Assembly (NCBI RefSeq): GCF_037996645.1
Contig: NZ_JBBMXV010000004.1
Location: 397,684-461,683 of the forward strand
Source: Halalkalicoccus tibetensis
GTDB lineage: Archaea > Halobacteriota > Halobacteria > Halobacteriales > Halalkalicoccaceae
Length of the DNA stretch: 64,000 bases
Direction: 5' to 3'
Positions 22,906-30,215 of this stretch are shown here, in pieces. The notes under the pieces were generated by a model. That model made no database searches and was not told the origin of the DNA. It saw nothing but the letters and a program-made list of their open reading frames with translations. The position numbers were made by a program, and so were the translations under genes. Position 1 is the stretch's first letter. Each line of letters begins with the position of its first letter.

Positions 22906-23454
22906 TTACTCGTGGACCGCTTCCTCGGTGACGAGGGTGTCGTCCTCGAGGTAGTGGTGGAAGTGATGGGCGTCGTCCTCGATGATCACGAGCGTCTCGC
23001 GCAGGACCTCCTCGCTACCGTAATCGCCCAGGTCGCCCGCCAGCTGGACGTGCTCGCGCATCCGCTCGATCGTCTCGGCGTAGATCTCCAGATCGTTCGA
23101 CAGCGAGGTGCGCACGTCGTAGACGTCCTCGCCCTCGAACTCGACGGTCGCGCGCTCCTCGAGGTTCGAGGGACCCGAGACCGGAACGCCGCCGATGGCC
23201 TGGGCGCGCTCGGCGATGATGTCCGCGCGCTCCTCGGCGTGCTCGTAGGCCTCCTCCAGGAACAGGTGCAGGTCGCGGAACTCCGCGCCCTCGACGTTCC
23301 AGTGGTGCTTCTTGAGCTGGTGGTAGATCACGTAGAGGTTGGCAAGATCGGTGTTCAGCGCGTCGATCACCTGCTCTGCCTTCTCCTTGTCGAGCCGGAT
23401 CGGGTTCTCCTCGACGGTATCGGCCTGCTGTCGGACGGATTTCTGGGTGCTCAT
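22906..23454 (-). CDS. dpsA: DNA protection/ferritin-like protein DpsA
   Basis: A 182-residue Dps ferritin that stores iron and protects DNA from peroxide. The intersubunit ferroxidase site is clear: KKHHWNVEGAEFRDLHLFL, followed by YEHAEERADIIAERAQAIGG. The N-terminus (MSTQKSVRQQADTVEENPIRL) and the His-rich end (DDAHHFHHYLEDD) match Halobacterium DpsA. An imperfect iron-type operator lies 55-72 nt upstream of the start at 23454, so it may share control with the iron importer and the small protein on the other side. Confidence 0.95.
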   Translation of the reverse strand: MSTQKSVRQQADTVEENPIRLDKEKAEQVIDALNTDLANLYVIYHQLKKHHWNVEGAEFRDLHLFLEEAYEHAEERADIIAERAQAIGGVPVSGPSNLEERATVEFEGEDVYDVRTSLSNDLEIYAETIERMREHVQLAGDLGDYGSEEVLRETLVIIEDDAHHFHHYLEDDTLVTEEAVHE

Positions 23455-25129: not shown

Positions 25130-25222
25130 GTTATCAATACTGACGGATCAGGTACGGTCAATCTATTAACTGAGGGACAGTAGATAACAACACTTTTGTC
25201 CCCGTTACCGCTTGTGGTGGGT

Positions 25223-25909
25223 ATGGCACGTACGCGCAGAGAGCTGCTGAAGCTGAGTGGGGGAGTACTGGCGGCCGCGGCGGTCGCCGGCTGTACCGAC
25301 GGCGGCGAGGAGGGGGAGGCCGAAGAGGGCGAACCCGAGGACGAGGGTGAGGACGATCACGACGACGAGGAGGACGACCACGACGATGACGATCACGACC
25401 ACGTCGAGGTCGAGGGGCTCGAGATCGTCGACGGGGACGGCGAGGAGGTCGCCTACATTCACGGCGACCACTGGCACGGCGAGCTCCAGGTCCCGATCGA
25501 CGAGACGGTCGAGTACGGGGCCGTCTTCGTCGACGAGGAGGGCGAGGAGATCCCGCTGGGCGAGGACGAGGAGTACGAGCTCGACGCCGAGGTCGCCGAG
25601 GGGGCCCAGGAGGGGATCGTCGGGATCGAGCCCCACGGCGACCACGTCGACGTCACGGGCGAGGAGGAGGGCCTGACCGAGGTCGTCTTCCTGCTCTGGC
25701 ACGACGACCACGCCGACTACGAGTCACCCCCGATCGACGCCGAGGTCGCAGAGGAGTTCGACGACGAGGACGACCACGGTCACGATCACGACGACGAGGA
25801 TGACCACGGTCATGACGACGAGCACGATCACGATGACGATCATGACCACGGTCACGACGATGACGATCACGGGCATGACGACGACCACGACCACGACGAC
25901 GATCACTGA
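25223..25909 (+). CDS. His-rich Tat lipoprotein carrying the ZnuA accessory domain
   Basis: A 228-residue protein. A Tat signal (RTRRELLKLSGG) leads to a lipobox ending at Cys24. His46-His60 lie in a D/H/E run. Residues about 61-175 form a compact beta-like domain with HGDHWHG at 80-86, VPIDETVEYGAVFVDEEG, PLGEDEEYELDAEVAEG and HGDHVDV at 138-144. The last 44 residues hold 15 His within Asp/Glu repeats. The same domain is inserted in ZnuA (26021-27406). It is probably an extracellular zinc-capture or zinc-donor protein for the ABC importer; this is inference from shared domain and position. The ATG at 25223 is fixed by the signal peptide. I know no named function for this architecture. Confidence 0.82.
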   Translation: MARTRRELLKLSGGVLAAAAVAGCTDGGEEGEAEEGEPEDEGEDDHDDEEDDHDDDDHDHVEVEGLEIVDGDGEEVAYIHGDHWHGELQVPIDETVEYGAVFVDEEGEEIPLGEDEEYELDAEVAEGAQEGIVGIEPHGDHVDVTGEEEGLTEVVFLLWHDDHADYESPPIDAEVAEEFDDEDDHGHDHDDEDDHGHDDEHDHDDDHDHGHDDDDHGHDDDHDHDDDH

Positions 25910-26020
25910 CTGATCGAGTCTCCGGACCGTCGGATCACGGGCTTCGTTCCCGGCCACGGACTTATTAAGAATCTGTTTTGGAATAATAACTCTTTTCATC
26001 GGGGAGCCCATCTCCCCGAT

Positions 26021-27406
26021 ATGGATCTGACACGGCGGTCGCTGCTGCGTGGCGGCGCGGGGGCGCTCGGCGCCTCGGCGCTCGCGGGCTGTCTCAGCGA
26101 CGTCGAGGGGGACGGCGGGGGAGAGGGATCCGGCTACGCCGCGTTCTTCGCGATCTGGGACTGGACCCAGCACGTCGGCGGCGAGGAGTTCGACTTCGAA
26201 AACCCGGTCGACGTCGGCGAGATGGGCCACGGCTGGGAGCCGGGCGGCGACCTCGCCCGGGAGATCGCCGGGACGGATGCCTTCGTCTACCTCGACACGC
26301 CGGAGTTCGCGTGGGCCCAGGACGTCGCCGCCCAGCTCGAGGCCGACTACGACGACGTCGCCGTCATCGACGGGATGGCGGGGCTGGAAGGTGAGCTCCT
26401 CCCGTGGGACGGTGGAGACCAGGGGGATCACGATCACGGGGAGGACGAGGTCGAGCCCGTCGACCACGAGTTCGATCCTGCGACCGTCGAGGTCGCCGAG
26501 CTCGACGTCATCGACCGGCGGACGGGCGAGGTCACGGCCTATCTCCACGGCGATCACTGGCACGGCGGCGTCCCCGACGTGCCCCTCGACGAGACGATTC
26601 CCGTGGGCGCGGTCTTCGAGGACGAGGAGGGGCGGGTGCTCCCGCTGGGCGAGGACGAGCAGTTCCAGCTCGACGCGACGATCGCCGAGGGCGCCCAGGA
26701 GATCATCGGGATCGAGTCGAGCGGCGACGAAGTGGCGATGGCCGGGCTCGAGGAGGGCCGCACGCAGGTCGTCTTCGAGCTCCTGAGCGACGGCGAGGTG
26801 GTCTTCGATACGAGCACCGACGGGCTCGACGCCGAGGTCGTCGAGGCCGCCCCCGAGGAGGCCCCCGAGTTCTACGACCCGCACGTCTGGGTCGACCCCG
26901 TCCTCGTGGGCGAGATGGTCGACACCATCGCCGAGGCGCTCGCCGAGATCGACCCCGACAACGCCGGGACCTACGAGGAGAACGCCGCGGCCTACGGGGA
27001 GGAGCTCGACGCGATCGACGGGGAGTTCGAGCGGATCGCCGAGGAGGCGGAACGCGACGTCGCGGTGCTCGCGGGCCACGACTCCTTCCAGTACATCGAG
27101 GAGCGCTACGGCTTCGATCTGCACACGCCGGTCGGGGCCTCGCCAGACGAGACGCCGAGCTCGGGCGACATCGGCGACACCATCGAGTTCGTGAACGAGA
27201 ACGGGATCGAGGTGATCCTCTACGACCACTTCGAGTCGCCGAACCTCGCCGAGACGATCGTCGAGAACAGCGAGGCGAGCGAGATCGAGTCGGTCAGCCC
27301 CGCCGAGGGCACCACGAGCGAGTGGAACGACGAGGGCTGGGGCTGGATCGAGCAGATGGAGGAGATCAACGTTCCCGCGTTCGCGAAGGCCCTCGGGGCG
27401 GAGTGA
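26021..27406 (+). CDS. znuA: Zinc ABC transporter substrate-binding lipoprotein ZnuA with inserted domain
   Basis: A 461-residue cluster A-I binding protein. Tat motif TRRSLLRGG, lipobox Cys24. The N-lobe has the ligand His70 in GHGWEP. The C-lobe has His288 in YDPHVWVDP and His353 in AGHDSFQYIE, both standard zinc ligands. Between the lobes, where bacterial ZnuA has a His-rich loop, residues about 158-275 form a full extra domain with YLHGDHWHGG at 174-183, VPLDETIPVGAVFEDEEG and PLGEDEQFQLDATIAEGAQE. This domain is closely similar to the upstream lipoprotein. A short HDHGEDE stretch precedes it. The gene is 111 nt from the lipoprotein gene and heads znuA-znuC-znuB. Confidence 0.92.
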   Translation: MDLTRRSLLRGGAGALGASALAGCLSDVEGDGGGEGSGYAAFFAIWDWTQHVGGEEFDFENPVDVGEMGHGWEPGGDLAREIAGTDAFVYLDTPEFAWAQDVAAQLEADYDDVAVIDGMAGLEGELLPWDGGDQGDHDHGEDEVEPVDHEFDPATVEVAELDVIDRRTGEVTAYLHGDHWHGGVPDVPLDETIPVGAVFEDEEGRVLPLGEDEQFQLDATIAEGAQEIIGIESSGDEVAMAGLEEGRTQVVFELLSDGEVVFDTSTDGLDAEVVEAAPEEAPEFYDPHVWVDPVLVGEMVDTIAEALAEIDPDNAGTYEENAAAYGEELDAIDGEFERIAEEAERDVAVLAGHDSFQYIEERYGFDLHTPVGASPDETPSSGDIGDTIEFVNENGIEVILYDHFESPNLAETIVENSEASEIESVSPAEGTTSEWNDEGWGWIEQMEEINVPAFAKALGAE

Positions 27407-27515: not shown

Positions 27516-28256
27516 ATGAGCGCGGTCGTCGACCTCGATGGCGTGACGTTCTCCTACGGCGACAGCGTCGCCGTCCGGGACGTCTCGCTGACCATCGGGA
27601 GCGGGGAGTTCCTCGGGCTCGTCGGGCCCAACGGCTCGGGCAAGACCACCCTACTACACCTGATGCTCGGGCTGCACAGCCCCGACAGCGGGTCGATCGA
27701 GCTGTTCGGGCAGCCCGTCGAGGAGTTCGACCAGGGCGAGCGCATCGGCTACGTCTCCCAGCAGTCGACCAACCGCGGGGGGACGATGCCGGTCACGGTC
27801 CGCGAGGCGGTGACGATGGGGCGCTTCGCCCACGCGGGACGGTCGCGCCTGAGCGACGAGGACGGCGAGATCGTCGAGCAGGCCCTGGAGACGGTCGGGA
27901 TCACCGATCTGGCCGACCGGCGGATCAACCAGCTCTCGGGCGGGCAGCGTCAGCGCGCGTACATCGCCCGCGCGGTCGCGAGCGAGGCCGACCTGCTCGC
28001 GCTCGACGAGCCCACCGTGGGCGTCGACGCCGAATCGCGCGACGCCTTCTACCGGTTGCTCGACTCGCTCAACGACAGGGGGATCACCATCGTGCTGATC
28101 GAACACGACATCGGCGTCGTCACGGATCGCGCCGAGCGGATCGCCTGCATCAACACCGAACTGTTCCATCACGGCGACACCGAGTCGTTCGTCGAGAGCG
28201 ACGCCCTCGAGGAGGCGTACGGCTCGACGGGCCGGGTCGTCCACCACCACCACTGA
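27516..28256 (+). CDS. znuC: Zinc ABC transporter ATP-binding protein ZnuC
   Basis: A 246-residue ATPase of the metal (Mn/Zn/Fe) importer class. Walker A is GPNGSGKTT, the signature LSGGQRQRAYIARAV, Walker B LLALDEPTVGVD, with the switch His in VLIEHDIGVV. The C-terminus ends in four consecutive His (VVHHHH), unusual for an ATPase and possibly a zinc sensor or an accident of composition. The stop overlaps the znuB start by one base (TGATG). Confidence 0.92.
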   Translation: MSAVVDLDGVTFSYGDSVAVRDVSLTIGSGEFLGLVGPNGSGKTTLLHLMLGLHSPDSGSIELFGQPVEEFDQGERIGYVSQQSTNRGGTMPVTVREAVTMGRFAHAGRSRLSDEDGEIVEQALETVGITDLADRRINQLSGGQRQRAYIARAVASEADLLALDEPTVGVDAESRDAFYRLLDSLNDRGITIVLIEHDIGVVTDRAERIACINTELFHHGDTESFVESDALEEAYGSTGRVVHHHH

Positions 28257-29269
28257 TGGGGCGATCGACCAGACGCCGGCTCGAGCTCGCCGGGATCGCC
28301 CTCACCGGTGCCCTCGCGGCGGTGATGATCGCCTTCGTCCTGCTCTACTGGCTCCGCGACGTCCCCTACTTCGCCGCCGCCTACGAGCAGTTCCGCATCG
28401 CGGGCCGGTTGCTCGACTTCTATCTGGGGACGAACGTCTTCCAGCATCCGTTCATGTGGCAGTCGATGGCCACGGGCGTGTTGATCGGGATCGTCGCTCC
28501 CTTGGTCGGCACGTATCTCGTCCACCGGGAGATGGCGCTGATCGGCGAGACGCTCGCCCACACCGCCTTCGCGGGCGTGGCCTTCGGCTTCCTGTTCAGC
28601 GCCGTGACCGGCTGGGACGGCTCGCTGCTGCTGATCGCGCTGATCGTCGGGATCCTCGGGGCGCTCTGTGTCCAGTGGCTGACCGAGCACACGAACGCCT
28701 ACGGCGACGTCCCCATCGCGATCATGCTCACCGGCAGTTTCGCGGTCGGCACGCTGATCATCAGCTACGGCCGGGGTCAGACCGGCATCGACATCGAGGG
28801 TTACCTGTTCGGGAGCCTCGCGGTCGTCACCGTCGAGGGCGCGCGGCTGATGGCCGTCCTCAGCGTCCTGGTCGTCGGGCTGGTCGCGATCACCTACAAG
28901 CAGCTGCTGTTCATCACGTTCGACGAGCAGGCCGCCCGCGTCGCCCGGCTGAACGTCGACGCCTACAACACCCTGCTGATCGTGATGACGGCCGTCGTCG
29001 TCGTCGGCGCGATGCAGGTTCTGGGCGTGATCCTCGTCGCCGCGATGCTGGTCGTGCCCGTCGCCGCGGCCTCCCAGATCGCCGGCAGCTTCCGGGAGAC
29101 GCTCTACCTCTCGATCGTCTTCGGCCAGCTCTCGATCGTCGGCGGGTTCGCGTTCTCGATCCACCAGGGGCTTCCCTCCGGTGGGTCGATCGTCGTCGTC
29201 GCGATCGCCATCTACCTGCTCGCGGTCGCCCTCTCGAACCGGTCTGCGACCGCGCTCTCGACGCACTGA
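28256..29269 (+). CDS. znuB: Zinc ABC transporter permease ZnuB
   Basis: A 337-residue permease of the ABC-3 family with about eight transmembrane helices. LVGTYLVHREMALIGETLAH and HTAFAGVAFGFL are the family signatures, and the GDVPIAIMLTGSFAVGTLII and VTYKQLLFITFDEQAAR-like (here AITYKQLLFITFDEQAAR) segments match ZnuB/MntB. The membrane domain is complete. The zinc assignment rests on ZnuA and the His-rich lipoprotein; manganese is the main alternative for the family. Confidence 0.92.
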   Translation: MGRSTRRRLELAGIALTGALAAVMIAFVLLYWLRDVPYFAAAYEQFRIAGRLLDFYLGTNVFQHPFMWQSMATGVLIGIVAPLVGTYLVHREMALIGETLAHTAFAGVAFGFLFSAVTGWDGSLLLIALIVGILGALCVQWLTEHTNAYGDVPIAIMLTGSFAVGTLIISYGRGQTGIDIEGYLFGSLAVVTVEGARLMAVLSVLVVGLVAITYKQLLFITFDEQAARVARLNVDAYNTLLIVMTAVVVVGAMQVLGVILVAAMLVVPVAAASQIAGSFRETLYLSIVFGQLSIVGGFAFSIHQGLPSGGSIVVVAIAIYLLAVALSNRSATALSTH

Positions 29270-29306: not shown

Positions 29307-30215
29307 ATGGCGTGGCATGCGCTGCGGGCGGCCGGCGAGTCGGTGACGGCGACGCGGCGGCTGCTCGCGAACGCGACGATGGCGGCGTGGCTTCGGCTCT
29401 CGGTGCTCGCGCTGTTCGTCGGCACGCTCGTCACGCCCTTTCTCGTCGATTTCAACCGGGGAGCGACGCTGCTCGGGTCCCTGCCCGACCCCACGCTGCT
29501 GCTCGTGGCGGGACTGTTCGTCGGGCTGGCGGCGCTCTGTGTCGGGACCGTCTTCGAGTTCGTCTTCCTCGAGGCGCTGCGCGGCGAGCGGGTCCGCCTC
29601 GTCACGGACAGCGGTCGCCGGTTCCGGGCCGGGATGGAGGTGTTCGCGTTCCGTACCGCTCTGGCGCTCGTCCTCGGGCTCGCGGTCGGTGCGTTCGTAC
29701 TGTTCGATCTCCCGCCCGCGATCGGTCCCCTCGCTTCCCTCGTGGTCGTGCTTGCGGTCCTCGACCGGCTGACGGTCGCGTTCGTGGTCCCGATCATGCT
29801 CGTCGACGGCCGTTCGCTCCCCGACGGGTGGCGGGCGTTCTCGCCAACGCTTCGTCGCGAGTGGCGCGAGTACGCGCTCTATCTGCTGGTCGCGACGCTC
29901 CTCTGGTCGGCGGTGGCTGTCGTCGGCGGGTTCGCGGGCGCGCTGCTCGCGGGTCTGTTGCTCGTGCCCTTCGTGGTCCTCGGGGGAGCGGTCGGCGGGA
30001 CGCTGCTCGCCCAGGGGCTCTCCGAGGCGACCGTCGGGCAGGCGGTGATCGGCACGCTCGCGGTGCCGTATCTGCTGGCGTTCGTCACGCTGGTCCTGCT
30101 CGCCCACGTCCCCGCCGTCGCCTACCTCCGGTATATCGCCCTGTTCGTCCTCGGCGACACGGCCGAGCGCTACGACCCGATCCCGCGGCTGCGCGCGGCG
30201 ATCCGGCGCGGCTGA
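29307..30215 (+). CDS. Polytopic membrane protein, haloarchaeal (DUF7544-like)
   Basis: A 302-residue protein with about seven hydrophobic segments, including LSVLALFVGTLVTPFLVDF, LLLVAGLFVGLAALCVGTVF, LAVPYLLAFVTLVLLAHVPA. Between helices 2 and 3 lies a short soluble loop with FLEALRGERVRLVTDSGRRF. The C-terminus (LGDTAERYDPIPRLRAAIRR) resembles the end of glycerophosphoryl-diester or DUF7544-type membrane proteins in haloarchaea. No function can be assigned. It starts 37 nt after znuB on the same strand, so it could be read through from the zinc operon. Confidence 0.75.
   Translation: MAWHALRAAGESVTATRRLLANATMAAWLRLSVLALFVGTLVTPFLVDFNRGATLLGSLPDPTLLLVAGLFVGLAALCVGTVFEFVFLEALRGERVRLVTDSGRRFRAGMEVFAFRTALALVLGLAVGAFVLFDLPPAIGPLASLVVVLAVLDRLTVAFVVPIMLVDGRSLPDGWRAFSPTLRREWREYALYLLVATLLWSAVAVVGGFAGALLAGLLLVPFVVLGGAVGGTLLAQGLSEATVGQAVIGTLAVPYLLAFVTLVLLAHVPAVAYLRYIALFVLGDTAERYDPIPRLRAAIRRG

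Follow-up and report, generated by a model that had tools for sequence, protein, structure and literature searches.

In AdcA, an accessory metal domain and a His-rich loop lie beside the zinc cleft and have been described as aiding zinc uptake, and its ZinT domain also accepts cobalt and nickel (PMC7858048). Transfer of zinc from the surface protein PhtD to AdcAII has been demonstrated in vitro, and in PhtD the metal is bound by an HxxHxH triad together with one acid (PMC3842936). AztD has two zinc sites and passes the metal directly to AztC (PMC6689063). Here we describe a domain, referred to below as D, which occurs in the window (the whole stretch of 64,000 nucleotides analysed here) in a lipoprotein and also in the neighboring ZnuA, and which compares with each of these systems. 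As in AdcA with its ZinT domain, a zinc-type binding protein of cluster A-I carries a putative accessory metal domain that is found as a protein of its own as well; D is, however, unrelated to ZinT in sequence, is a predicted beta-sandwich of ~111 residues and mostly sits between the lobes at the site of the His-rich loop, whereas the ZinT domain of AdcA is C-terminal. As for PhtD and AdcAII, a surface protein with HxxHxH motifs is encoded beside a ZnuA-type protein, although Pht proteins consist of short three-strand units and D of a full beta-sandwich with two triads. With AztABCD the locus shares an extra, chaperone-like component beside a zinc ABC importer, but AztD is a beta-propeller, D is a separate domain, and the znu genes of the window have no adjoining AztD. 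The His-rich loop of bacterial ZnuA occupies the same position in the protein and D probably likewise gathers zinc for the cleft, yet D is folded with fixed His triads whereas the loop is disordered. It is the parallel to the accessory metal domain of AdcA that leads us to read D as a capture domain. With a probability of roughly 0.7, D would be an extracellular domain for the capture of transition metals that has spread as a module and feeds the importers of haloalkaline microbes, the route at this locus leading from the lipoprotein to D-containing ZnuA (D-ZnuA) and on to ZnuBC.

A domain common to the lipoprotein and ZnuA

The locus comprises the following features (window positions):

25163-25191, + strand: operator-like element in the lipoprotein promoter, CTATTAA-N14-ATAACAAC, with two mismatches to TTATTAA-N14-ATAATAAC
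25223-25909, + strand: D lipoprotein gene, 228 aa (from the list of open reading frames)
25223-25294, + strand: twin-arginine signal with lipobox (MARTRRELLKLSGGVLAAAAVAGC) of the D lipoprotein, from the sequence and a weak Pfam TAT_signal match
25406-25735, + strand: D domain of the lipoprotein, site A (HGDHWH) complete, site B HGDHVD plus HDDH
25775-25906, + strand: His/Asp-rich tail of the D lipoprotein, 44 residues, 15 of them His
25962-25990, + strand: operator-like element in the znuA promoter, TTATTAAGAATCTGTTTTGGAATAATAAC, an exact match, with a TATA-like CTTTT behind it
26021-27406, + strand: znuA with inserted D, 461 aa, Tat/lipobox signal at 26021-26092
26489-26821, + strand: D inserted between the ZnuA lobes at the position of the His-rich loop, site A present, site B lost (SSGDEVAMAG)
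27516-28256, + strand: znuC, ABC ATPase (PF00005, E 2.9e-34)
28256-29269, + strand: znuB, ABC-3 permease (PF00950, E 8.7e-59)

The original prediction had described the lipoprotein as a single copy of the domain followed by a 44-residue tail with 15 His, and had placed an extra domain between the two lobes of ZnuA. Both descriptions hold: the product of 25223-25909 consists of a Tat/lipobox signal, an acidic His-containing linker, one D and the His/Asp tail, with 26 His in total, 15 of them in the last 44 residues, and the insert in ZnuA covers residues ~157-267 (about 111 residues), solved homologues such as AdcA matching the two lobes only and skipping residues ~154-284. ZnuA itself belongs to PF01297 (161.8 bits in the Pfam scan against a curated cut-off of 29, E 2.9e-47), and the His ligands of zinc-type proteins are kept in its lobes (H47, H265 and H330 of the mature form, aligned to AdcA). 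H47 and H330 are invariant in 43 ZnuA sequences, while H265 of the window protein lies within DPHVW. In a side clade of D-ZnuA proteins (L059, L069, L071, L075, L076 and L111) AKFF or VKFF replaces PHVW, with one His ligand gone, extra His-rich linkers and usually ZnuB alone adjoining.

An ABC-3 permease and an ATPase adjoin the binding protein on the same strand, which makes this a ZnuABC operon. The best NCBIfam match of znuC is AztA, below the AztA cut-off; all the AztA, AztB and AztC models match below their cut-offs, and no AztD was found among the window genes at the znu locus. A gene for a DUF7544 membrane protein follows znuB (29307-30215) and recurs near D genes in L039, L108 and L109, and ~2 kb upstream of the lipoprotein gene a ferritin-like (Dps-type) protein is encoded on the opposite strand (22906-23454, -).

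The D of the lipoprotein is 52% identical to the ZnuA insert, and their match extends over 122 residues with 56% identity (E 3.3e-30); no other significant copy is present in the genome. That the two proteins have in common a domain outside any named family, as had been proposed, thus proved correct: 74 D sequences had only chance-level matches in Pfam and NCBIfam (and none to ZinT), the D region of whole D proteins had no match above chance in the same two collections, profile searches of PDB sequences returned nothing over chance level, and literature on the motif and on haloarchaeal zinc transport yielded no description of D. Assignment to the streptococcal histidine triad family PF04270 was rejected, the matches being sub-threshold strays (E 0.0094 in one of 74 sequences, 0.12 in one of eight). 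D shares with PF04270 proteins the HxxHxH motif, of which each D has two, at columns 19/22/24 and 77/80/82.

AlphaFold2 modelled the lipoprotein D, with 74 aligned sequences, confidently and entirely as beta strands (mean pLDDT 96.9, pTM 0.89), and in the ZnuA model D is a beta unit of its own, set between the lobes after a disordered linker. D is thus a small, His-rich, predicted beta-sandwich domain and represents a new family, probably with a known kind of job. Foldseek matches of the predicted D in the PDB are generic Ig-like, Rib and S-layer (SbsC) domains (best E 1.1e-3, TM ~0.5), and no Pht chain is among the top 50 matches listed. Neighbors of this kind, and the presence of D in large haloarchaeal surface proteins, would also suit a structural or docking Ig-like domain, contacting for instance the S-layer or a partner D, whose His residues serve adaptation to salt or pH instead of metal binding. 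We consider this quite improbable, since the best-conserved positions are two HxxHxH triads, the zinc motif of Pht proteins (PMC3842936), and the genes around D encode metal transporters of different classes.

Conservation and pairwise association (phi) were analysed in 252 distinct D domains. The best-conserved polar positions are H19, H22, W23 and H24 (site A) and H77, G78, D79, H80 and H82 (site B), both of HxxHxH form. In ZnuA inserts the His residues of site A are kept in 93-100% of sequences (H19 0.96, H22 1.00 and H24 0.93 in 96 inserts) and those of site B in 41-62%, the corresponding ranges for lipoproteins being 72-90% and 70-89%. Phi values, which are inflated by relatedness, reach 0.30-0.60 within site A and 0.55-0.64 within site B against ~0-0.16 between the sites, and judging from this pattern the two triads are kept or lost independently. 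Direct-coupling analysis gave no signal for a contact between sites A and B, for the exclusion of which 252 sequences are too few. The window lipoprotein has site A and most of site B, its ZnuA insert site A alone. Degradation of site B in about half of all ZnuA inserts, that of the window included, could be taken to mean that the insert is an inherited neutral decoration and that only the lipoprotein works; but site A is near-invariant in the inserts, more so than in the lipoproteins, which makes such a reading very improbable.

Gene order and a common promoter element

The usual haloarchaeal order is D lipoprotein, D-ZnuA, ZnuC, ZnuB. In the whole-genome locus set a D lipoprotein lies directly upstream on the same strand for 28 of the 46 D-ZnuA genes and is not adjacent to the other 18. 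As the pair recurs in dozens of genomes, with this share of adjacent copies, it is not a product of chance. The domain search and the neighbor counts therefore agree with the two-part arrangement of lipoprotein and ZnuA envisaged in the original prediction, which is conserved in gene order and also in a promoter element, and its link to a zinc-type ABC importer is borne out by znuC, znuB and the conserved neighbors. At one locus (L089) a D lipoprotein precedes a ZnuA which lacks D and has an ordinary His-rich loop exactly where D is inserted elsewhere; to judge from this case, D and the loop appear to substitute for each other in this position.

The element has the consensus TTANTAA-N14-WTANTAAC and lies upstream of both window genes. 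In znuA promoters it stands directly before the TATA-like CTTTT(A), ~27 nt ahead of the start codon. With up to two mismatches it is found in 38 of 48 znuA promoters and 29 of 41 promoters of D genes, against 0.3 in dinucleotide shuffles, and a spacing of 14 is a clear optimum for its halves. Among eight further genomes scanned, six, all haloarchaeal, have the element 32-34 nt before a gene for a CobW/COG0523 GTPase (L250, L252, L253, L256, L257 and L261). A subset of COG0523 has links to zinc homeostasis in Bacteria and Archaea, and from haloarchaea no recognisable Zur or Fur homologue was known (PMC2770081). We regard the element as a candidate zinc-shortage operator, and the genes behind it as a candidate zinc regulon of haloarchaea, as far as promoter sequences can suggest. 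Upstream of the COG0523 genes of the window genome itself the element was looked for and is absent. In the whole window genome the count of sites with three mismatches is no higher than that of a reversed control pattern, and therefore only promoter sites with few mismatches were used. No convincing bacterial Zur box was seen upstream of the bacterial D genes. The element also precedes genes for FAD/NAD(P) oxidoreductases (flavoproteins; L250, L253, L260, L261 and L263) and, in the window genome, a pyridine-nucleotide oxidoreductase gene (C4:332933).

According to our main reading, the Tat-exported lipoprotein would hold D and its His/Asp tail at the cell surface, gather zinc there and hand it, either directly or via a high local concentration, to the D grafted into ZnuA; site A of this D would then load the three-His site between the lobes, and ZnuBC would import the zinc. 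The lipoprotein gene and znuA might be switched on together via their common operator, the simplest trigger being a lack of zinc. A missing piece of archaeal metal uptake would be supplied by D as accessory capture domain together with this candidate zinc-shortage operator.

D in other proteins and other metal importers

In haloarchaea D occurs as the ZnuA insert, in lipoproteins with one or two copies, in proteins of ~900 residues where it stands beside another repeated His-containing domain, and, at L091, in a fusion with a membrane protein that resembles NicO (a weak Pfam match, E 0.0068). The second repeated domain (VDHAHACxHG...RTPL...WNVTY...GYVxFD...) has no Pfam match and is found in D proteins of up to ~950 aa (L055:5816-8641, L056, L057, L058, L054, L066 and L077). 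Tandem D domains were seen at L119, L123, L128, L130, L158 and L170, a set that includes one ZnuA with two copies (L119) and triple-D single lipoproteins or ZnuA-like proteins.

A ZnuA that contains D and adjoins ZnuC and ZnuB is found in Thermoplasmata, Spirochaetaceae, Izimaplasma and other Mollicutes (Pfam ZnuA was confirmed for L145 and L130), and the cultured Natroniella acetigena likewise has a D-ZnuA with ZnuC and ZnuB behind it. Fusions of D with AztD occur in Nitriliruptoria and Trueperaceae (NCBIfam AztD, E 5e-28 to 5.5e-51; PDB 6cmk) and adjoin an AztC-like protein; this occurrence of the same domain lends support to the analogy with zinc chaperones from which the original prediction had started. 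In Syntrophomonadaceae, Tindallia and Natroniella, D lipoproteins belong to operons of the type CbiQ-CbiO-D-CbiM-NikL-like near cobalamin genes. Because these lipoproteins of Bacillota sit in cobalt operons, D as such cannot be specific for zinc. The zinc role that had been proposed is too narrow, a role in zinc uptake alone being ruled out by the CbiMQO operons and the NicO-like fusion. In these other operons D might collect cobalt or nickel outside the membrane and load the binding protein of the importer.

D is also found in large stand-alone surface proteins and in lipoproteins away from importers (L055, L056, L062 and L064). Such proteins, and a His/Asp tail typical of a low-affinity metal sponge, would fit a surface buffer or store, or a sink against excess, which raises the local metal concentration with no transfer to ZnuA by direct contact. 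This is in our view an unlikely explanation, given that D is built into ZnuA and AztD themselves, that it occurs within operons for uptake and not for efflux, and that the operator also marks COG0523, a gene of the zinc-starvation type.

Distribution and habitat

With the ZnuA insert as query, D was found in 71 of 391 sampled genomes of the haloarchaeal class, representing 30 of 86 genera, and was not found in the five other sampled species of the window genus. A search at the level of the phylum added one further genus outside the class. A scan of 84,980 species, for which a close alignment of eight D sequences served as query, returned 77 named loci, one of them in Methanocalculus chunghsingensis. 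The original prediction had taken the system to be specific to haloarchaea or their relatives, and this has to be given up: beyond the haloarchaea D is present in Methanocalculus and Thermoplasmata and in some ten groups of bacteria, the loci including Syntrophomonadaceae, Natroniella, Tindallia, Izimaplasma and other Mollicutes, Spirochaetaceae, Trueperaceae, Nitriliruptoria, Myxococcales, Lujinxingia, Gemmatimonadetes and Ignavibacteriales.

By record title, soda-lake MAGs account for 58 of the 77 named loci, a plain count that carries no enrichment factor; of the 32 bacterial loci, 30 are such MAGs. The sample codes CSBr, Tc-Br and MSAO presumably also denote soda-lake samples, and most of the named isolates with D are haloalkaliphiles (Natrarchaeobius, Natronococcus, Natrialba chahannaoensis, Halorubrum vacuolatum, Natroniella and others). 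The codes DLM and GEM we take to be the Canadian soda lakes of PMC6748926. CSSed, T1Sed, T3Sed and B1Sed stand for Kulunda soda lakes with a pH of about 10 (PMC6146748). On chemical reasoning, carbonate and high pH would keep transition metals undissolved, and D may be favored in such places. The main surprises are this spread over archaea and bacteria of one habitat and the use of D by unrelated metal importers. We find it fairly probable that there is one horizontally mobile, hitherto undescribed D family common to soda-lake archaea and bacteria, employed in the unrelated ZnuABC, AztABCD, CbiMQO and NicO-like machines as a habitat-level answer to metal scarcity in carbonate-rich water of high pH, and that in haloarchaea D is under a likewise undescribed operator of zinc type which it shares with COG0523. 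The scarcity of dissolved metal in soda lakes might then have selected one portable domain across many phyla, and D, with its about 115 residues, could serve as a habitat marker or be used as a compact binder of metals where salt and pH are high.

Among relatives D is patchy (one of 13 genomes in the order of Natroniella, seven of 248 in the spirochaete class and nine of 395 in the class of Izimaplasma), and two collections of plasmids and phages gave no match. The D tree is poorly resolved, with Bacteria and Archaea interleaving and at least 12 changes. The ZnuA lobes of Natroniella acetigena score 192 bits against streptococcal AdcA and 175 against Bacillus YcdH, but 80-137 against haloarchaeal ZnuAs, while its D has up to 59% identity with a haloarchaeal D. 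Since the lobes are nearer to bacterial ZnuAs and D is near haloarchaeal copies, it seems from these comparisons that the D module rather than the whole znuA gene crossed the boundary between archaea and bacteria. In methanogens of the Methanocalculus type (L102-L106) the D proteins have C-terminal membrane anchors, and two of them are fused to an N-terminal domain of uncertain kind (PHIGCCMVVTYRAF).
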